Source: Arcobacter venerupis
GTDB taxonomy: Bacteria > Campylobacterota > Campylobacteria > Campylobacterales > Arcobacteraceae
NCBI RefSeq assembly: GCF_013201665.1
Contig: NZ_CP053840.1
Span: 1,922,001 to 1,986,000 of the forward strand
DNA: 64,000 nucleotides
Reading direction: 5' to 3'
Shown here piece by piece: positions 51,943 to 61,773 of this stretch. The notes under the pieces are model-generated. The model was not told the DNA's origin and did no database searches. It was given only the letters and a program-made list of their open reading frames with translations. How positions within the stretch are numbered: position 1 is the stretch's first letter; every line of letters begins with the position of its first letter. The translations under genes and the position numbers were made by a program.

Positions 51943-52025
51943 ACATTTCCTTAAGTTATTATTTGGTAGAATCGCCCCACTATTATATCAAAAATATAAT
52001 GTTAATTTTATTGAGGGAAATGCTA

Positions 52026-53195
52026 ATGAAAATTGCAAACAGAATGGAAAATCTGTCTCCATCGGTTACTATGGCAATAACTGCCTTAGCTCGAGAGCTT
52101 AAAGCTCAAGGTAAAGATATACTAAGTTTTAGTGCAGGTGAACCTGACTTTGATACACCACAAATTGTTAAGCAAGCTGCTATAGATGCTATCAATGAAG
52201 GTCGAACGAAATATACAGCTGTAGAAGGTATTATCGCTACTAAGCAAGCAATTATAAATAAACTAAAAAAAGATCATGGTTTAGATTATAAATTAGATGG
52301 TATTGTAATAAGTAATGGAGCAAAACACTCTTTATTTAATCTTTTTCAAGTATTAATTGAAAATGGTGATGAAGTTATTATTCCAGCACCTTATTGGGTT
52401 ACATATCCTGAGCAAGTAAAATTTTCAGATGGTGTTCCAGTATTTATTGACACTGATGATTCAACAGATTTTAAAATCACACCAGAGCAATTAAAAGCTG
52501 CAATTACTCCAAAAACAAAAATTTTGCTTTTGAATACTCCTTCAAATCCAACAGGATCAGTGTATTCTAAAGAAGAATTACTATCACTTGGTGAAGTTTT
52601 AAAAGGTACTGATATTATCGTACTTTCAGATGAAATGTATGAAAAAATCATCTATAATGGCAAAAAATTCACTGCTGCTGCTCAAGTTAGTGAAGATATG
52701 TACAATCGAACTGTAACTATTAACGGTTTAAGTAAAGCAGTTGCAATGACTGGTTGGAGATTTGGATATCTTGCAACTCCTGATGTTAAACTTGCAAAAA
52801 CTTTAACTAAACTGCAAGGTCAAGTTACTTCAAATATCAACTCAATTACTCAATATGCAGCTATTCCTGCTCTTGAAGGTGATGCAGATGCTGATATTGA
52901 AATGATGAGAGTTGAATTTGAGAAAAGAAAAAATATTGTAGTTAAATCATTTAATGATATTAAAGGTTTATCAACTACAGATCCAGATGGTGCATTTTAT
53001 GTTTTTGTAAATATAAAAGAAGTATCTAATGATTCTGTAAAATTTTGTTCAGATCTTTTAGAACAAAAAGGTGTAGCTTTAGTTCCTGGCCTTGCTTTTG
53101 GAACAGAAGGTTATATTAGATTCTCATTTGCTACAGATTTAGCAACAATTCAAGAGGGAATCAAAAGAATCAAAGAGTTTGTAGAAAACAAATAA
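52026..53195 (+). CDS. Class I aspartate aminotransferase
   Basis: The 389-residue protein has the aminotransferase I fold: SFSAGEPDFDTP, NGAKHSLFN, the PLP-binding block TINGLSKAVAMTGWRFGY with the catalytic Lys, and a final IRFSFATD with the substrate-binding Arg. It exchanges amino groups between aspartate and 2-oxoglutarate or similar pairs. The frame extends to 51963, but ATG 52026 has GAGGG at 8 bases. Its stop overlaps the next gene's ATG by one base. Confidence 0.93.
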   Translation: MKIANRMENLSPSVTMAITALARELKAQGKDILSFSAGEPDFDTPQIVKQAAIDAINEGRTKYTAVEGIIATKQAIINKLKKDHGLDYKLDGIVISNGAKHSLFNLFQVLIENGDEVIIPAPYWVTYPEQVKFSDGVPVFIDTDDSTDFKITPEQLKAAITPKTKILLLNTPSNPTGSVYSKEELLSLGEVLKGTDIIVLSDEMYEKIIYNGKKFTAAAQVSEDMYNRTVTINGLSKAVAMTGWRFGYLATPDVKLAKTLTKLQGQVTSNINSITQYAAIPALEGDADADIEMMRVEFEKRKNIVVKSFNDIKGLSTTDPDGAFYVFVNIKEVSNDSVKFCSDLLEQKGVALVPGLAFGTEGYIRFSFATDLATIQEGIKRIKEFVENK

Positions 53196-54082
53196 TGACT
53201 CCACAAAAAAAAGCTACCGTTGTTTCATCTAGTGTTGCAGCGGTACTTACTCTTATAAAACTAGCAATTGGAATCGCCAGCGGTTCTGTTGCTGTTTTAG
53301 CTTCTGCTATTGATTCTGTTTTGGATATGTTTGTATCAATTTTTAATTATTTCGCTATTTCAAATTCTGAGAAACCTGCTGATAAAATTTTTAATTATGG
53401 GAGAGGAAAAATTGAAGCCTTAGCTTCTGTGATTGAAGGTACAATTATTACTATTTCTGGTTTATTTTTACTTTATCAAGCAGTTAAAAAAGCTTTGAAT
53501 TCTGAAACTTCTCAATATTTAGAAATATCTATTTATGTAATGATTATATCTTTAATAATTACTATTTCTTTAGTAACTTATTTAAATTATGTTGCAAAAA
53601 AAACAAATTCTATGGTTATAAAAGCAGATGCTCTTCACTATAAAACAGATGTTTTTAGTAATGCAGCTGTTTTAATCTCTTTATTACTTGTAACTTTTAC
53701 AGGTTATGAGATTATTGATATATTTGTGGGTGGAGGCATTGCTTTATATATTATTTATTCAGCTTATGAACTTATACATGATGGTATTTTGGTTTTATTA
53801 GATAGAGCAGTTGATGAAGAACTTGTATTAAAAATCAAAGATATAATAAAAGAAAATGATAAAGTAAATACTTATCACTTATTAAAAACAAGAGAAGCTG
53901 CAAATCAAACATTTGTAGAAGTACACTTAGTTTTTAATTGTCTTATTACTTTAATGGAAGCACATAAAGCAAGTGATTATATTGAAAATAAGATAAAAAA
54001 ATTAGATTCTTCAAGAGATTGGATTATAAATATTCACATGGATCCTTATGATGATTTTAAAGTAAACGATATAACTCATTAG
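53195..54082 (+). CDS. Cation diffusion facilitator (FieF-like)
   Basis: The 295-residue protein has six membrane segments with the CDF metal-site motifs ASAIDSVLDMFVSIFNY and ALHYKTDVFSNAAVLI, and a cytoplasmic ferredoxin-like domain with HLVFN and HMDPYDD. It exports zinc, iron or manganese using protons. It is coupled to the aminotransferase gene and lies 33 bases before the PDE/HD-GYP gene; whether it belongs to the signalling operon downstream is unclear. Confidence 0.9.
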   Translation: MTPQKKATVVSSSVAAVLTLIKLAIGIASGSVAVLASAIDSVLDMFVSIFNYFAISNSEKPADKIFNYGRGKIEALASVIEGTIITISGLFLLYQAVKKALNSETSQYLEISIYVMIISLIITISLVTYLNYVAKKTNSMVIKADALHYKTDVFSNAAVLISLLLVTFTGYEIIDIFVGGGIALYIIYSAYELIHDGILVLLDRAVDEELVLKIKDIIKENDKVNTYHLLKTREAANQTFVEVHLVFNCLITLMEAHKASDYIENKIKKLDSSRDWIINIHMDPYDDFKVNDITH

Positions 54083-54115: not shown

Positions 54116-56452
54116 TTGAATTACATAAAAATTTTGGGTGCCAGTGGAAGTAAAGCGAAAAATCAAAATACAACCTCTTTTCAAGTATTCAAAGATATAG
54201 TTGTTGATGCTGGAAATATTTTAAATGCCTTAGGAAATGAGGCAAAAGAGATTAACCATATTTTCCTAACTCACTCCCATGCTGATCATATTGCTGATTT
54301 ACCTTTTATTATTGAAACTTTTTTTGAAGAAAGAACTACACCTCTTACAATTTATGCATTAGAAGAAACCATTGAAATTCTTCAAAAGCATTCATTCAAT
54401 AATAAAATTTGGCCTGATTTTACAAAAATAAAATTAAATCATAATGATAAATTTTCACTTATTTTTAAACCTATTTTATTAAATGAAATTATTCATATCC
54501 ATAACTATTCTATAAAAGCCATCGCAGCAAATCATATTAGTGGTTCATGTGGATATATTATAAAAAAAGATCAAAATAAAAGTTTTGTCATAAGTGGAGA
54601 TACATATTTAAATCCGATACTTTGGGATGAAATTAATAATGATGAATCAATTAAATCTTTGATTCTTGAGTGTTCATTTCCTGATAAATTAGAAAATTTA
54701 GCAAAAATTACAAAACATTTAACTCCCTCTTTAATAAAAAAAGATCTTGAAAATCTTAAAAGGAAAGATCTTTCAATCTTTTTTTATCATTTAAAACCAA
54801 GTTATAAAAAAGAGTTATTGCAAGATATTAAAAAAAATAAGCTATTAGACTACAATGGAAAAGTTTTAAATGAAGGTGACATAATTCATATTGATACAGG
54901 AAATATTGAAAATAGTTTATTAAGTGAGCATAAATTTGAAGAGATAATGAAAATAAATTTAGCACTTACATCACAACATAATAAAGAGAAATTATTTGAA
55001 GATATACTGACATTAACAAGAAAATTGACAAATGCAGATGCTGGAAGTTTATATATAAAATCAAAAGATGAAAAAAATCTTGAATTTAAAGTTGTTCAAA
55101 ATGAAACACTCAATATTAAAATCGCTAATATAAAAAATGATTCTTCTTGGCCTAATCTACCTATATATTTAGAGGATGGAACTGTAAATAATAAAATGGT
55201 TGCTATTGTTTGTGCAAATGAAAAAAGAATTATAAATATTCATGATGTATACAAAACAACAGAATATAAGTTTGAAGGGACGAAGAATTTTGATAAAACA
55301 ACTAATTATCGTTCAAAATCAATGCTTGTTATTCCATTAATAAACCATGAAAATGATGTAATAGGTGTTTTACAATTAATCAATAAAAAAAGAGATAAAG
55401 AGATAATTAATTTTGACAAATTAGATGAAAAAGTTATCATATCTTTAGCTTCACAAGCTGCAATGGCATTAACAAATATGCAATTGATTTCAAGTTTAGA
55501 AGAATTTATAAATGCTTTTGTTTCAACTATTGCAAAAGCAATTGATGCTAAATCTCCATATACAAGTGATCATATTGAAAAGGTTGAAAAAATTGCTTTA
55601 CTTATAGCAAAAGCCATAAATGATGATAAAACAATTTATAAAAATATAACTTATACAGAAAATGATTATAAACAAATAGCACTTGCTGCATGGATACATG
55701 ATATTGGTAAAATTTCAATGCCTGAATATGTACTTGATAAAGCAACAAAATTAGAAAAGATATATGATAGGATAGATTTAATCGAACAAAGATTTGAAAT
55801 TATTAAAAAAGATAAAGAGATTGAGTATTTAAAAAAACAGATTTCAATAGAGAAATTTGAAGAAGATATTAAACTATTAGAGGATTATTCTTCTTTTATT
55901 AAAAGAGTTAATTTAGGTGGCGAATTTATGAAAGATGAAGATATTTCTAAATTAGATGAAATATCAAAATTAACCTATAAAAAAGACAATATTGATTTTC
56001 CTCTTATAAATCCAGATGAATATTATAATTTATCAATAAGAAAAGGCACATTAACAAAAGAAGAGATAGATATTATTAGAAACCATGCTCAACTTTCACT
56101 TGATATGATTTCAGAATTACCTTTTCCAAAGAAATTCAAAAATGTTCTAAATATTGCGTGTAATCACCATGAAAAATTAAATGGAACAGGTTATCCAAGA
56201 GGTTTAAGTGAAAAAGATATTAGTTTAGAAGATAGAATTATGATTTTTTCAGATATTTTTGAAGCACTAACAACATCAGAAAGACCATATAAAGTAGCTA
56301 TGAAATTATCTACAGTAAAAAATATTTTTGAAAACATGACAAATAAAGGAGAAATAGATAAAGATTTAGTTCAATTCTTCTTTAATCATAATATTTTAGA
56401 GCAATATGGTAAAGAAGCACTAAAAGCTGAACAGTTAGATTTAAATAAATAA
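54116..56452 (+). CDS. Class II cAMP phosphodiesterase-GAF-HD-GYP protein
   Basis: The 778-residue soluble protein has three modules. Residues 1-265 are a metallo-beta-lactamase fold with THSHADH (H53, H55, D57, H58), VISGDTYLNP and LILECSFPDK ... KHLTPSLIK, the signature of class II (yeast Pde1-like) cAMP phosphodiesterases. Residues about 275-460 are a GAF domain. The C-terminal domain is HD-GYP: HD528-529 in WIHDIGK and HHEKLNGTGYP (684-694), fitting c-di-GMP hydrolysis. A charged helical insert of about 100 residues sits between the HD and GYP parts. The start is TTG at 54116 after AAAGG. Confidence 0.87.
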   Translation: MNYIKILGASGSKAKNQNTTSFQVFKDIVVDAGNILNALGNEAKEINHIFLTHSHADHIADLPFIIETFFEERTTPLTIYALEETIEILQKHSFNNKIWPDFTKIKLNHNDKFSLIFKPILLNEIIHIHNYSIKAIAANHISGSCGYIIKKDQNKSFVISGDTYLNPILWDEINNDESIKSLILECSFPDKLENLAKITKHLTPSLIKKDLENLKRKDLSIFFYHLKPSYKKELLQDIKKNKLLDYNGKVLNEGDIIHIDTGNIENSLLSEHKFEEIMKINLALTSQHNKEKLFEDILTLTRKLTNADAGSLYIKSKDEKNLEFKVVQNETLNIKIANIKNDSSWPNLPIYLEDGTVNNKMVAIVCANEKRIINIHDVYKTTEYKFEGTKNFDKTTNYRSKSMLVIPLINHENDVIGVLQLINKKRDKEIINFDKLDEKVIISLASQAAMALTNMQLISSLEEFINAFVSTIAKAIDAKSPYTSDHIEKVEKIALLIAKAINDDKTIYKNITYTENDYKQIALAAWIHDIGKISMPEYVLDKATKLEKIYDRIDLIEQRFEIIKKDKEIEYLKKQISIEKFEEDIKLLEDYSSFIKRVNLGGEFMKDEDISKLDEISKLTYKKDNIDFPLINPDEYYNLSIRKGTLTKEEIDIIRNHAQLSLDMISELPFPKKFKNVLNIACNHHEKLNGTGYPRGLSEKDISLEDRIMIFSDIFEALTTSERPYKVAMKLSTVKNIFENMTNKGEIDKDLVQFFFNHNILEQYGKEALKAEQLDLNK

Positions 56453-58590
56453 TGAAAAATATCAATCTAATTTTAGCTTTTTTCATATCAATAATTACAA
56501 TAACTTTATATATTTATGCTCCAAGTCTACTCCAATCTTTGGATGATAGATTAAGAGATTCAATGTTTACTTTAAGAGGAGAGATTAAACCTCAAAGCGA
56601 TAGTGTTGTAATTATTGATATTGATGAAAAATCATTGCAACAATTAGGTCAATGGCCATGGCCTAGAGATATTCTTTCAAAAATTCTAGAAAATTTAGCA
56701 GATAAAAAAGTTGCAATAATTGGACTAGATATTGTATTTGCAGAAGAAGATAGAAGTTCACCCCATAATATATTTAAGAAATATAATATAAAAAGAGATA
56801 ATGTTGAAGATTTTGATTATAACTTTGCTCAAACAGTTGCAAGTACTCCAACAATACTTGGTTATCAATTTGAATTTACTTCTAGTGATTATATAAATAA
56901 GAAATCACCATTTATTCAAACAACATTTATAGAAAAGAATAAACAAATAGGGAAAAGTTATCTTTTAGAAGCAAAAGGAACGATACTTAATATACCTGTG
57001 ATTCAAAATATTTCTTACTCTAGTGGATTTTTTAATAATATTCCAGATGAATCAGGAATCATAAGAAGTGTTCCATTAATCATCTCATATAATGACCAAA
57101 TTTTTCCTTCTCTTGCACTTGAAACATTAAGAATTGCCCTTGGAGTTAATAAAATATTTATTAATTATGATGAAAATGGAGTTAATAATATTCAATTAAA
57201 TAACTTAACAATTCCCACAGATAGATATGGAAGATTGTTAATAAATTTTAGAGGAAAAGAAAAGACTTTTAAATATATATCTGCTGTTGATATTTATAAT
57301 AATAACTTTAAACAAGAAGATATTGAAAATAAAATTGCACTTGTTGGTACTTCTGCTGCTGCACTTATGGATTTAAGAGCTACACCTTTTGAATCAATAT
57401 TTCCAGGAGTTGAAGTCCATGCAAATGTAATTGATAACATAATTACACAAGATTTTTTATATAAATCTTCTTGGATTGATGGTTTTAATGTAACATTGAT
57501 TTTTTTATTAACATTTCTTACTTTTTTTATGATTAGAAAAGTTCATATTGCATTAACACCTTTTTTTATTGCAGGTTTATTAATTGCAGCATTTTATATT
57601 AATTACTATTTATTATTTCATGTGGGAATCGTAATAAACTCTCTTTTCCCTATTATTACTATTATTTTGTCTGGTGTAATAAGTTTAGTTATTGGATATT
57701 TTTTTGAAATAAGAAAAAAAGAGGAAATAAAGAAAAAATTTGCTTCAAAAGTTTCTAAAAATGTTATGGAAGAACTAATCAAAAATCTTGATTCAAATCA
57801 TTTAGAAGCTAAAAATAAAGAGATAACTATATTTTTTAGTGACATCAGGAAATTTACAAATATCTCAGAAAAAATCAGTAAACCTGAACTACTAATTGAA
57901 TATTTAAATCAATATATGACTCCAATGAGTGAAATTATTATAAAAAATGATGGAACAATAGATAAATATATTGGTGATTCAATAATGGCTTATTGGAATG
58001 CTCCTTTTGAAATAGAAAATCACCCAGATAAAGCTGTAATTAGTGGTTTAGAACAGTTAGCTTATTTAAGTATATTAAATGAAAAGATAACTAAAAACAA
58101 TCAACCAACTATAGATATAGGAATTGGAATAACAACAGGAGTTGCAACAGTTGGAGAAATAGGAAGTATTGGAAGAAACGATTATACTGTAATTGGTGAT
58201 ACAATTAATCTATGTTCAAGACTTGAATCTTTATGCAAATTTTATGAATCAAAATTGATTATTTCTCAAAATACTAAAGATAAACTAAAAGAAAAATATG
58301 TTTTTAGATACTTAGATTTTGTACAAGTAAAAGGGAAAGAAGAACCTATAAAACTTTGGGAAGTTATTAGTTTAGAAAAAGATTATAATGAAGATAAAAG
58401 CGAATTAGAAAAATATGAAACTGCAATTAAATTATATGAAAAAGAACAATTAAAAGGTGCCGTAGAAATATTCAAAGAATTAAAAAATAATTATAAAAAT
58501 AGAAAAATTTATGATATTTACATACTAAGATGTGAACAATTCATGAAAAATAATAACTTTAATATTTTATTTAAACATACTTTTAAATGA
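56452..58590 (+). CDS. CHASE2-domain class III adenylate/guanylate cyclase
   Basis: The 712-residue protein has an N-terminal membrane helix, a periplasmic CHASE2 sensor (about 30-330, VIIDIDEKSLQQLGQWPWPR), three membrane helices (about 345-420), and a class III cyclase domain (about 450-640). Metal residues D464 (FFSDIRKFT) and D509 (YIGDSIMAYW), N586 and R590 are intact. Lys505 with Thr579 at the base-recognition positions favours ATP over GTP, so cAMP synthesis is predicted. Its ATG overlaps the previous gene's stop, pairing a cyclase with a phosphodiesterase. Confidence 0.9.
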   Translation: MKNINLILAFFISIITITLYIYAPSLLQSLDDRLRDSMFTLRGEIKPQSDSVVIIDIDEKSLQQLGQWPWPRDILSKILENLADKKVAIIGLDIVFAEEDRSSPHNIFKKYNIKRDNVEDFDYNFAQTVASTPTILGYQFEFTSSDYINKKSPFIQTTFIEKNKQIGKSYLLEAKGTILNIPVIQNISYSSGFFNNIPDESGIIRSVPLIISYNDQIFPSLALETLRIALGVNKIFINYDENGVNNIQLNNLTIPTDRYGRLLINFRGKEKTFKYISAVDIYNNNFKQEDIENKIALVGTSAAALMDLRATPFESIFPGVEVHANVIDNIITQDFLYKSSWIDGFNVTLIFLLTFLTFFMIRKVHIALTPFFIAGLLIAAFYINYYLLFHVGIVINSLFPIITIILSGVISLVIGYFFEIRKKEEIKKKFASKVSKNVMEELIKNLDSNHLEAKNKEITIFFSDIRKFTNISEKISKPELLIEYLNQYMTPMSEIIIKNDGTIDKYIGDSIMAYWNAPFEIENHPDKAVISGLEQLAYLSILNEKITKNNQPTIDIGIGITTGVATVGEIGSIGRNDYTVIGDTINLCSRLESLCKFYESKLIISQNTKDKLKEKYVFRYLDFVQVKGKEEPIKLWEVISLEKDYNEDKSELEKYETAIKLYEKEQLKGAVEIFKELKNNYKNRKIYDIYILRCEQFMKNNNFNILFKHTFK

Positions 58591-58600
58591 TAGGAAATTG

Positions 58601-59941
58601 ATGTATTTAAAAACCGCTATATTACTTTCGTCAGTTATTTTTTTGGAAGCTGATAATGAAATAGCTTCAAACAATAAAAATCAAATAAAAAAAGATGGAT
58701 ATTCTCAAATAATAGAAGATTCAAATGAATATATTACAGCTTCAATTATGTATAAAATACAAGATTATCAAAAAGCATATGATAAATTTTTTAAACTATT
58801 TCAAAAAAATCCACATAATACAAATGTAAATTATTTTCTAGCATTAAGTGCCCTTAAGCTAGATAAATATGATGAAGCAACAGCTACTTTTGAAAGAATT
58901 TTGATACAAAATCCAGAATTTAATCAAGCAAGATATGAATATGCAAAACTACTTTATAAATTAAACTTAAAAAATGAAGCAAAAAAAGAGTTTACAATTT
59001 TAAGTAAATCAAATATAAAAGATGAGACAAAAGAGTCTATAACTAAATATCTAGATTTATTAAATGAAAAAACTTTTTTTGTAAATGCAACAATATTATT
59101 GGGAGTTGGAAGAAGTACAAATATAAATACAGGATTAATTTCTCCTGAATATAGACTACCTGGATTAAATGACATTTTAGTAAATGGAGAAAAACCTATT
59201 GCTGATAATTATCATAATGAAATGTTTGGAATTAATTTCTTAAATAATTTCAAAGACTCTTCTTTTAGTTTAAAAAATTCAATTCTTGTTTATAATAAGA
59301 ATTATTTTAATAATGATAAAGAAGATTTAACAGCTTATGTTTATAAACCTTCTTTTTCTTATTTAGACTCAGATAAAAAGAATCTTTATTCTTTAAATTT
59401 TGGTTTAACAAGATTAGATAAAAGAGATAATGAAGATTTTAATATATTTAATATTGGTCCTTCAATTATGAACTCATCATATTATGCTTCAGTTAATTAT
59501 CAAAGATTTTCATATTTACATGAATCCGACAAAGAAAAAGATTTTGACAAATATGAACTTTTATTAAAATATAAATTATTATCAAATCTTAATATCTATT
59601 CTAAATTAGCAAAAAGTATAAGAGTTGATTCTTCAAGAGTTGATTTAGATAAAAATAGTGTTACAGCAGGGCTTGAGTATATCTACGAAATAAATAAGGA
59701 AAATTCTATAAAATTTGATTCAGAGTATATAAAAAGTTATTATAAATATGAAAATACTTTTTTTGATTCAAAAAGAAAAGATGATAATTATTATCTAGGA
59801 TTGTCTTATTTAACTAAAATAGATAAAGAGAATCAAATTGTATTATCATCATCATTTACAAAAAATTATTCAAATCAAGATGGATATATTTATGAAGAAG
59901 TTGATGGAAAAATTAGTTATATAAAAACATTTAATTGGTAA
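58601..59941 (+). CDS. TPR protein with C-terminal outer-membrane barrel
   Basis: About 446 residues. After a short hydrophobic leader (residues 1-15) come TPR units (YKIQDYQKAYDKFFKLFQKN; NVNYFLALSALKLDKYDEAT), then from about residue 160 many alternating aromatic/hydrophilic beta strands ending in an aromatic Trp, typical of an outer-membrane barrel. The plan resembles surface lipoprotein assembly modulators (Slam), but that is only structural likeness. A TTG three bases earlier could also start it; ATG 58601 has AGGA spaced well. Confidence 0.75.
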   Translation: MYLKTAILLSSVIFLEADNEIASNNKNQIKKDGYSQIIEDSNEYITASIMYKIQDYQKAYDKFFKLFQKNPHNTNVNYFLALSALKLDKYDEATATFERILIQNPEFNQARYEYAKLLYKLNLKNEAKKEFTILSKSNIKDETKESITKYLDLLNEKTFFVNATILLGVGRSTNINTGLISPEYRLPGLNDILVNGEKPIADNYHNEMFGINFLNNFKDSSFSLKNSILVYNKNYFNNDKEDLTAYVYKPSFSYLDSDKKNLYSLNFGLTRLDKRDNEDFNIFNIGPSIMNSSYYASVNYQRFSYLHESDKEKDFDKYELLLKYKLLSNLNIYSKLAKSIRVDSSRVDLDKNSVTAGLEYIYEINKENSIKFDSEYIKSYYKYENTFFDSKRKDDNYYLGLSYLTKIDKENQIVLSSSFTKNYSNQDGYIYEEVDGKISYIKTFNW

Positions 59942-59951
59942 AGGATTTAAA

Positions 59952-61163
59952 ATGAAAAGAATTATTTTAATTTTATTATTTATTAGTAATCTCTTACTTG
60001 CAAATAATATTGGAAAAATTGTCGCATTAAGTGGAGAAGCCACTATTTTAAGAGAAGGTAAAATTATCCAAGTTAATAAAGATTCAGTTTTTGAAAAAGA
60101 AGATACATTAAATACAAAAGATAATACCAAATTACAAATTCTCTTTTTAGATGATACTATTATTTCTGTTGGGCAAAATTCTACTTTGAAAATAAATGAA
60201 TATTTATTTGAAGAAAAAAATACAAAAGCTGAGTTTTCAATGGCAAGAGGAATTTTTAGAACAATAACTGGAAAGATAGGAAAAATTGCTCCTGAAAATT
60301 TTAAATTAAAAACCAAAACTGCTTCAATTGGAATAAGAGGAACTCAAATTATAACGGTTATAGAAGATAACAATGAAAAAATATTTTGTACTGAAGGACA
60401 AATTGAGGTAAAAAATAATCTAACAAAAGATACGGTTATTGTAAATAAAGGTGAATTCCTATCTTTTAAAGAAAATAGTACTGAAAAATTAAATATTCAA
60501 GAAATCAAACAAAATGATATTCAAGAAATAAATAAAAATATAGCTATTAAAGAAAATCTTCCCATAGATAATATCTCGCTTCCAACTGAAACAACAGATA
60601 TAACAAAAGAACAGAATAGCCCTATTCCTACAAATAAAACATTAGCATCACTTGAAAATAAAGAAACTGTAATTAATATTCCTTCAACTGACAATTCTTC
60701 AACTGACAATTTAAGTGGTTTAGATGATAACAATAATTTCATAACTAGAACACCAGCTAGTTTTTTCAATAGCACTAATTCAACAGCTAGTTACATTGGA
60801 AGTTTTCCAACTGAATTATCTTCTTCTAATTATATGGTTAATAGCTCAAGAGAAACTGTTGCAATTCCTAGTGATACAAGAATATCAATGGATATTGATT
60901 TTGCAAAATCAAACAATCAAATCTCAAATGGAAAAGTAAACATTAGTGATGTAGGAAATGGAATGGGCAAAACTCTTACATTTGAAGGAGAAATACATGG
61001 CAACTCTGGAAATCTATCTCTTTATCCAAGAGGAGAAACTCACGGAGATACAGGTAGTGCAAAATTATATGGAGATACTGCTAATTACATGCAAGGAAAT
61101 ATTAATTTTAAATCATCAGATAATGTTGAAATAAATTCAGAATTTAATGCAAAAAAACAATAA
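59952..61163 (+). CDS. FecR-domain periplasmic protein
   Basis: The 403-residue protein has a Sec signal (about 1-17) and a FecR domain (about 25-175: GKIVALSGEATILREGK, DDTIISVGQNSTLKI, ARGIFRTITGKIG, TASIGIRGTQIITV). A long Thr/Ser/Asn-rich low-complexity region (about 190-290) and a C-terminal beta-rich domain (about 300-400) follow. FecR domains at the periplasmic face pass envelope signals inward. Here it ends the cyclase/phosphodiesterase operon, and no sigma factor is nearby. Confidence 0.82.
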   Translation: MKRIILILLFISNLLLANNIGKIVALSGEATILREGKIIQVNKDSVFEKEDTLNTKDNTKLQILFLDDTIISVGQNSTLKINEYLFEEKNTKAEFSMARGIFRTITGKIGKIAPENFKLKTKTASIGIRGTQIITVIEDNNEKIFCTEGQIEVKNNLTKDTVIVNKGEFLSFKENSTEKLNIQEIKQNDIQEINKNIAIKENLPIDNISLPTETTDITKEQNSPIPTNKTLASLENKETVINIPSTDNSSTDNLSGLDDNNNFITRTPASFFNSTNSTASYIGSFPTELSSSNYMVNSSRETVAIPSDTRISMDIDFAKSNNQISNGKVNISDVGNGMGKTLTFEGEIHGNSGNLSLYPRGETHGDTGSAKLYGDTANYMQGNINFKSSDNVEINSEFNAKKQ

Positions 61164-61189
61164 AAAAAGAGTCTTAAGACTCTTTTTTT
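61162..61189. terminator. Perfect 28-bp palindromic bidirectional terminator
   Basis: AAAAAAAGAGTC and GACTCTTTTTTT flank TTAA, forming one uninterrupted palindrome with A/T tracts on both ends. It ends the signalling operon and the leftward gene; that gene's last codons and stop lie inside it. Confidence 0.85.
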
Positions 61190-61773
61190 AAACTATTTAT
61201 TTTTTCATCAATCAAAGACAAAGTTCTTTCTTGAGTTTTATATGAAATTTCTGGAAGTTCCCCTCCAAAAAGTTTTTTAGCTTCTTCAAAACCTTGAACG
61301 ATTCCATCTCTACCTTTTTGTAAAAGATCTAAATCATCTCCTGCAAAACTAAATACAAAATTAGAAACTCTATCTGAAGTTTGAGTTACTCCAAAAAAAC
61401 CATTTTCACTTATTAAACTACTTGCTTCATCTTGTGTAAGTTCAGTTATTGGTTTTCCATCATAACCTATATCTTTAAGGCTCATACCGCTTTGAGTTTC
61501 TTTTCCACTTAAATAATCTAATACATCTTGCTGTTTGCTACTTAAACTAGCTTGAGTTAGAGTATTACTTTCATTTACAGATGAACTATTCATAGCCATA
61601 AGTATATATTGGGCATTCATTGATAATGACACTTTTACTGCTGATTCATTCATTGTCTGTTCAAGTGATTTTTCACTTGTTTTTTCTGAGTTGTCATTGT
61701 TGGTAACATTTGTATTTTGCTTATACTTATTTAAAGCAATATTCGAACTATTTGAATTACTTTGAACTTCCAT
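61174..61773 (-). CDS. Hypothetical Ser/Asn-rich protein
   Basis: The 199-residue protein starts with a low-complexity Ser/Asn segment (MEVQSNSNSSNIALNKYKQN), followed by a more ordered C-terminal part (about 80-199; SLKDIGYDGKPITELTQDEA, FGVTQTSDRV). No signal peptide or membrane helix. Similar Campylobacterota proteins are sometimes labelled hydrogenase-4 component G, which I consider unsupported. Its C-terminus is encoded by the terminator stem. Confidence 0.65.
   Translation of the reverse strand: MEVQSNSNSSNIALNKYKQNTNVTNNDNSEKTSEKSLEQTMNESAVKVSLSMNAQYILMAMNSSSVNESNTLTQASLSSKQQDVLDYLSGKETQSGMSLKDIGYDGKPITELTQDEASSLISENGFFGVTQTSDRVSNFVFSFAGDDLDLLQKGRDGIVQGFEEAKKLFGGELPEISYKTQERTLSLIDEKINSLKKES

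Follow-up and report, generated by a model that had tools for sequence, protein, structure and literature searches.

A gene cluster comprising a CHASE2 adenylate cyclase, a cyclic AMP (cAMP) phosphodiesterase, a FecR-domain protein and a TPR protein has been described in Campylobacterota and proposed to form one pathway (mBio 2022, PMC9239204). The same four components make up the locus considered here, genes 1 to 4 of a window of 64,000 nucleotides from Arcobacter venerupis (contig NZ_CP053840.1, positions 1,922,001 to 1,986,000; coordinates below are those of the window), and both the cluster and the one-pathway idea are therefore largely known. What we add is a reading of genes 3 and 4 as a pair of the type XI secretion system (T11SS) kind, the spread of the association beyond the phylum, and a cyclic-nucleotide motif in the GAF domain of gene 1. 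The main text of PMC9239204, as far as searched, mentions neither type XI secretion or Slam, nor an eight-stranded cargo barrel, nor the GAF nucleotide motif. Our favoured reading, to which we give slightly better than even odds (roughly 0.55), is that of an envelope-to-second-messenger module in which genes 3 and 4 form a T11SS-type pair that feeds the CHASE2 cyclase of gene 2, while gene 1 ends the signal.

Three further systems bear on this reading. Sinorhizobium meliloti needs both the outer membrane protein NsrA and the CHASE2 cyclase CyaK to perceive an external protein signal, according to PMC7529298 and PMC13001267, the former of which places the NsrA barrel at residues 600-1200. Immediately upstream of cyaK lies a gene annotated as encoding a FecR-domain protein, which scans as FecR-TPR-barrel. 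We take it to be nsrA from its adjacency, the literature and the published position of the barrel. As in our locus, FecR, TPR and outer membrane barrel parts thus adjoin a CHASE2 cyclase, and outer-membrane-to-cAMP signalling is backed genetically there. NsrA however is a single polypeptide as opposed to the two chains of genes 3 and 4, the barrels are not detectably homologous, and no phosphodiesterase or HD-GYP gene lies beside cyaK. T11SS (Slam, NilB and HrpB with TbpB, fHbp and haemophilin-type cargo) resemble genes 3 and 4 in that a TPR-barrel translocator adjoins a protein with a C-terminal eight-stranded barrel, but differ in that the predicted cargo in the cluster bears a FecR head and that a cyclase goes with the pair; FecR, Campylobacter, Arcobacter and cyclases all go unmentioned in the main text of the two T11SS surveys consulted. 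Finally, the BiofilmReg operon of Burkholderia (LysM-FecR protein, CHASE2 histidine kinase and regulator) likewise pairs a periplasmic FecR-domain protein with a CHASE2 receptor, yet has a kinase output, no barrel pair and no cAMP. The input sensed by CHASE2 domains has been stated to be unknown (PMC5192318).

Genes 3 and 4 as a putative translocator and its cargo

The product of gene 3 carries TPR helices (residues 31-154) followed by a predicted 14-strand outer membrane barrel (159-445), and its AlphaFold2 model, with a mean predicted local distance difference test (pLDDT) score of 90.7, has seven helices and then 14 long strands, the best fold matches to the barrel being 14-strand porins. 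Among 27 aligned relatives TPR_Slam is matched in 14 and SlipAM (PF04575) in 7; in separate scans three relatives exceed the SlipAM cut-off, as do two more outside the phylum. As judged from the profile matches of its relatives and from its predicted architecture of N-terminal TPR and 14-strand barrel, gene 3 is a probable member of the Slam/T11SS translocator family, with a putative function in export.

Gene 4 encodes a FecR-fold domain (about residues 20-200), a disordered linker (202-279) and a predicted eight-strand C-terminal barrel (280-403), whose strands lie at 292-402 in a model of moderate pLDDT; its signal peptide lacks a lipobox cysteine. TbpB_B_D, a domain that marks T11SS cargo (PMC12282271), is matched at the C-terminus of 12 of 24 relatives, and FHBP_C in one of them. 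Fold matches to the barrel include fHbp, NHBA, TbpB and haemophilin, so that relatives and model together point to a barrel of the TbpBBD/lipoprotein C type. All four are Slam/T11SS-type cargo. In 27 of 30 genomes of the family the cargo-type gene lies within 3 kb of the translocator gene. Moreover, among 61 family genomes all 30 with the cargo have the translocator, 30 of the 31 with the translocator have the cargo, the remaining one holding a broken copy, and the two never occur without CHASE2. Separately, residues 17-110 of gene 4 (window 60000-60281) match in fold 5ix9, titled 'Cell surface anchoring domain' (Z 9.4, 2.0 Å over 74 residues) and, weakly, the LapA retention module.

A FecR domain would also be expected of an anti-sigma factor in cell-surface signalling of the FecI-FecR-FecA kind, and the FecR-fold domain of gene 4 indeed matches the periplasmic domain of PupR (Z 16.1, 2.7 Å over 140 residues) and that of another anti-sigma protein (Z about 16). 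We nevertheless rejected such a role as highly improbable, for gene 4 lacks the DUF4880 and FecR_C parts, possesses a signal peptide and has no sigma gene nearby, unlike a canonical FecR elsewhere in the same genome (L088), which combines DUF4880, FecR and FecR_C and adjoins an extracytoplasmic function (ECF) sigma gene.

But how might such a pair instruct a cyclase? In the module that we favour, gene 3 would be the outer membrane translocon and gene 4 its cognate cargo, addressed to it by the C-terminal barrel, and the N-terminal FecR domain would contact CHASE2 as its periplasmic partner. The state of the gene 4 product, be it waiting in the periplasm, caught in the translocon or, after export, attached to the cell surface, would then set the output of the gene 2 cyclase. 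The cAMP would act via Crp/Fnr-type proteins and be removed by the phosphodiesterase of gene 1, whose GAF domain may read a cyclic nucleotide and gate the phosphodiesterase, the HD-GYP domain or both, so that a change in cAMP would also shift cyclic di-GMP (c-di-GMP). By analogy with NsrA, the most likely role of the FecR domain is to inform CHASE2 whether the cargo has been exported or is at the surface; we favour this relay because genes 3 and 4 hold the three kinds of part of NsrA on two chains. Only tentatively do we extend this to a general statement, namely that a T11SS pair can serve as a signalling device in which a CHASE2 cyclase learns across the periplasm whether a cargo with a FecR head is exported or occupied at the surface, FecR being the general partner of CHASE2 across Proteobacteria and Campylobacterota.

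The same parts could be arranged as an NsrA in two pieces, with gene 3 as a receptor barrel bearing periplasmic TPRs and gene 4 as a FecR relay to CHASE2 confined to the periplasm, its barrel serving just to dock on gene 3, with no export. Such an arrangement would be in keeping with the lack of a lipobox in gene 4 and with NsrA itself, which unites all three parts in a single polypeptide beside a CHASE2 cyclase and acts as a receptor. It sits less well with the SlipAM and TPR_Slam matches in the gene 3 family, the TbpB_B_D matches in the gene 4 family and the lack of homology by profile between the barrels of gene 3 and NsrA, and we regard it as unlikely.

Predicted synthesis and breakdown of cyclic nucleotides

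Gene 2 joins CHASE2 (residues 18-353) to a class III cyclase domain (455-633) with a complete catalytic set, consisting of the metal aspartates D464 and D509, the substrate residues K505 and T579, and N586 and R590 as transition-state asparagine and arginine. These residues identify it as a predicted adenylate cyclase, and CyaB and further adenylate cyclases are among the nearest relatives of solved structure. A preliminary description of the locus, made from the sequence alone, had argued for ATP from K505 and T579; ATP is indeed the expected substrate since both residues are correctly placed and conserved (the lysine is invariant among 39 aligned CHASE2 cyclases and the threonine is kept in 38 of them) along with the metal, asparagine and arginine residues. 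Gene 2 is the sole class III cyclase in the 3.2-Mb genome, which also contains six matches to cNMP-binding domains and 35 to GGDEF, and thus both messengers have possible partners in the cell.

Gene 1 encodes a metallo-β-lactamase (MBL)-fold phosphodiesterase domain (residues 1-262), a GAF domain (291-452) and an HD-GYP domain (about 482-750) with an insertion of about 80 residues. The first of these scores 49.9 bits with the PDEase_II profile (Pfam cut-off 23.7) and retains the metal ligands H53, H55, D57, H58, H140, D162 and H225, its metal motif reading HxHADH as compared to HxHLDH in most relatives. On profile and ligands it is a predicted class II cAMP phosphodiesterase. Identity as RNase Z was rejected, as the respective profile gives just 57 bits where 293 are required, and the best solved relative is yeast PDE1. 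The HD-GYP domain conserves H528, D529, K532, H657, H684, H685, G692, Y693 and D713 and with them the HD and HHxxxxGxGYP signatures of a c-di-GMP phosphodiesterase, an activity that it probably possesses. The GAF domain contains a complete NKFDE motif, which is characteristic of cyclic-nucleotide GAF domains (PMC4411481), and its nearest solved relatives are domains of that type. These features suggest a possible gating role for cAMP, exerted on the phosphodiesterase or on the breakdown of c-di-GMP by HD-GYP. As a universal feature of the family the motif is unsupported, its conservation being confined to part of it.

Among relatives the phosphodiesterase either adjoins or is fused to the cyclase, and occurs in split form (a separate MBL gene beside the cyclase), forward-fused and reverse-fused. 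The reverse form, GAF-HD-GYP-MBL in one chain (loci L067:3083-5002, L103:10093-12069 and L112:363-2294), is another fusion that unites these domains.

Co-occurrence, spread and the weight of the evidence

Of 120 genomes surveyed in the order, 53 have CHASE2, 50 have FecR and 48 have relatives of gene 1; the 53 CHASE2 genomes include 45 with FecR and 46 with gene 1 relatives. Pairwise co-occurrence of CHASE2, FecR and MBL-HD-GYP gives Fisher p-values of 1e-17 to 1e-24 with phylogeny ignored. A partner lies within 8 kb of 43 of the 65 CHASE2 matches (FecR near 35, the phosphodiesterase near 27). The neighbourhoods keep their content while order and strand vary, and several arrangements have the four genes in one contiguous run. 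Aliarcobacter sp. STC_124 (L092), the nearest relative, has an identical four-gene order. From STC_123 (L093) precisely genes 3 and 4 (window 58589-61158) are missing, the sequence on either side being conserved, for which reason we consider that the two behave as one unit; its genome, a metagenome-assembled one, contains just a short FecR elsewhere.

In a wider survey with a CHASE2 query over named genomes, triads of translocator, FecR and CHASE2 within three genes were found at 16 of 34 loci in Campylobacterota, 5 of 12 in Gammaproteobacteria and 7 of 17 in Desulfobacterota, and were confirmed by Pfam in Thiomicrospira, Nitrincola and Desulfoluna. FecR also stands beside genes for CHASE2-HD-GYP (with an OmpA-domain protein), CHASE2-GGDEF and CHASE2-kinase proteins, and in Bradyrhizobium and Microvirga it heads adhesin-like proteins of the Ig, cadherin or laminin type (1100-1960 amino acids) directly upstream of a CHASE2 cyclase. 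No FecR gene was found among the upstream neighbours checked at some CHASE2 cyclases outside Campylobacterota (L132, L149, L151-L153).

That order and strand differ among genomes might be taken as a sign of chance neighbours without shared function. Co-occurrence and clustering across three groups, together with MBL/HD-GYP fusions in both orders, make this scarcely credible. As to the preliminary description, the conservation of the four-gene order across Campylobacterota that it put forward as a check is not seen, as the genes are rearranged, genes 3 and 4 often face the opposite way and the phosphodiesterase can be divided into separate genes. Its notion of one pathway reaching to the outer membrane draws support from gene content, in line with the conclusion of PMC9239204 and the precedent of NsrA-CyaK, and its interpretation is thus partly supported. 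It had correctly seen a barrel in gene 3 but did not foresee the apparent translocator and cargo character of genes 3 and 4, a FecR protein devoid of anti-sigma parts, or the predicted cyclic-nucleotide motif of the GAF domain.

Several observations weigh against the module as we propose it. The window's own gene 3 is not matched in a SlipAM profile scan, nor its gene 4 in a TbpB_B_D scan, and their membership rests on relatives and predicted fold; unrelated eight-strand barrels score as high against the gene 4 barrel as T11SS cargo; and the search for profile similarity between the gene 3 and NsrA barrels detected no relationship. Five to six of the 61 family genomes hold a CHASE2 cyclase without the pair, the p-values given above take no account of phylogeny, and just 11 of 21 aligned fusions in forward order have the NKFDE motif complete, with those in reverse order lacking it. 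Moreover, cAMP could have gene 4 as its output instead of receiving input from it. Genes 3 and 4 would then be a surface or secreted protein and its exporter under the control of cAMP, with CHASE2 sensing something else, as might be anticipated from the fact that operon partners can be targets and that the cAMP-Clr regulon of S. meliloti includes the FecR-domain protein SMc02177 (PMC5498481). We consider this improbable in view of the single operon-like run that genes 3 and 4 share with the cyclase in the window, the company that FecR keeps with CHASE2 regardless of the output domain, and the reported requirement for NsrA upstream of the cyclase.

Locus layout and implications

The four open reading frames lie head to tail on the plus strand as first described (Table 1), and the domains called at that time are all recovered by Pfam above cut-off (PDEase_II, GAF and HD_5; CHASE2 and Guanylate_cyc; TPR; FecR), so that the observation itself is confirmed. 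Genes 1 and 2 overlap by one base, and the other gaps measure 7-10 bases. The start of gene 1 is backed by homologues with the N-terminus MNYIKILG or MNYLKILG. The terminator anticipated at the end of the cluster is present as a 13-pair stem with just 3 G-C pairs that overlaps the gene 4 stop codon, and it is seen on both strands because the following gene is convergent. The transcription unit may begin upstream of gene 1, since a cation-efflux gene (53195-54082) ends 33 bases before it and no terminator is predicted between the two. This gene abuts an aminotransferase gene, and both (51963-54082) lead into the operon in the same direction; L092, L060 and L061 likewise retain an upstream gene the size of an aminotransferase.

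Table 1. Features of the locus, in window coordinates
Feature	Coordinates	Strand	Description	Basis
Gene 1	54116..56452	+	TTG start; MBL-fold class II-type cAMP phosphodiesterase, GAF, HD-GYP	Open reading frame, Pfam
NKFDE-type cyclic-nucleotide motif of GAF	55382..55429	+	N423, K424, F433, D437, E438	
Gene 2	56452..58590	+	CHASE2 receptor and class III adenylate cyclase domain	Open reading frame, Pfam
Gene 3	58601 (or 58598)..59941	+	Signal peptide, TPR helices, predicted outer membrane barrel	Open reading frame, Pfam, model
Gene 4	59952..61163	+	Signal peptide, FecR-fold domain, linker, predicted C-terminal barrel	Open reading frame, Pfam, model
Bidirectional intrinsic terminator	61161..61190	both	Common to gene 4 and the convergent gene 61174-61773 (-)	

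Some related neighbourhoods deserve mention in their own right. Very large surface proteins with Ig-like or cadherin, FG-GAP and Lcl_C domains lie beside FecR and CHASE2 genes at L041:3372-7538, L052:7839-13064 and L054:3977-8974. A short FecR paired with an OmpA-domain protein (L070:4096-6629, L071, L089:3968-5001) adjoins CHASE2-HD-GYP in some genomes, and the genome of A. venerupis itself has such a pair without a CHASE2 neighbour. On a plasmid of the alphaproteobacterium Ensifer sp. PDNC004 (L179:5779-9833), FecR, TPR, CHASE2 cyclase and MBL hydrolase genes are clustered next to a bacteriocin-type exporter cluster.

The recurrent FecR neighbour, together with NsrA, provides a concrete candidate for the partner of CHASE2 receptors. 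The motif in the GAF domain would offer a route from cAMP to c-di-GMP. If our reading is true, genes 3 and 4 would carry type XI secretion into the Campylobacterota and into the field of signalling.
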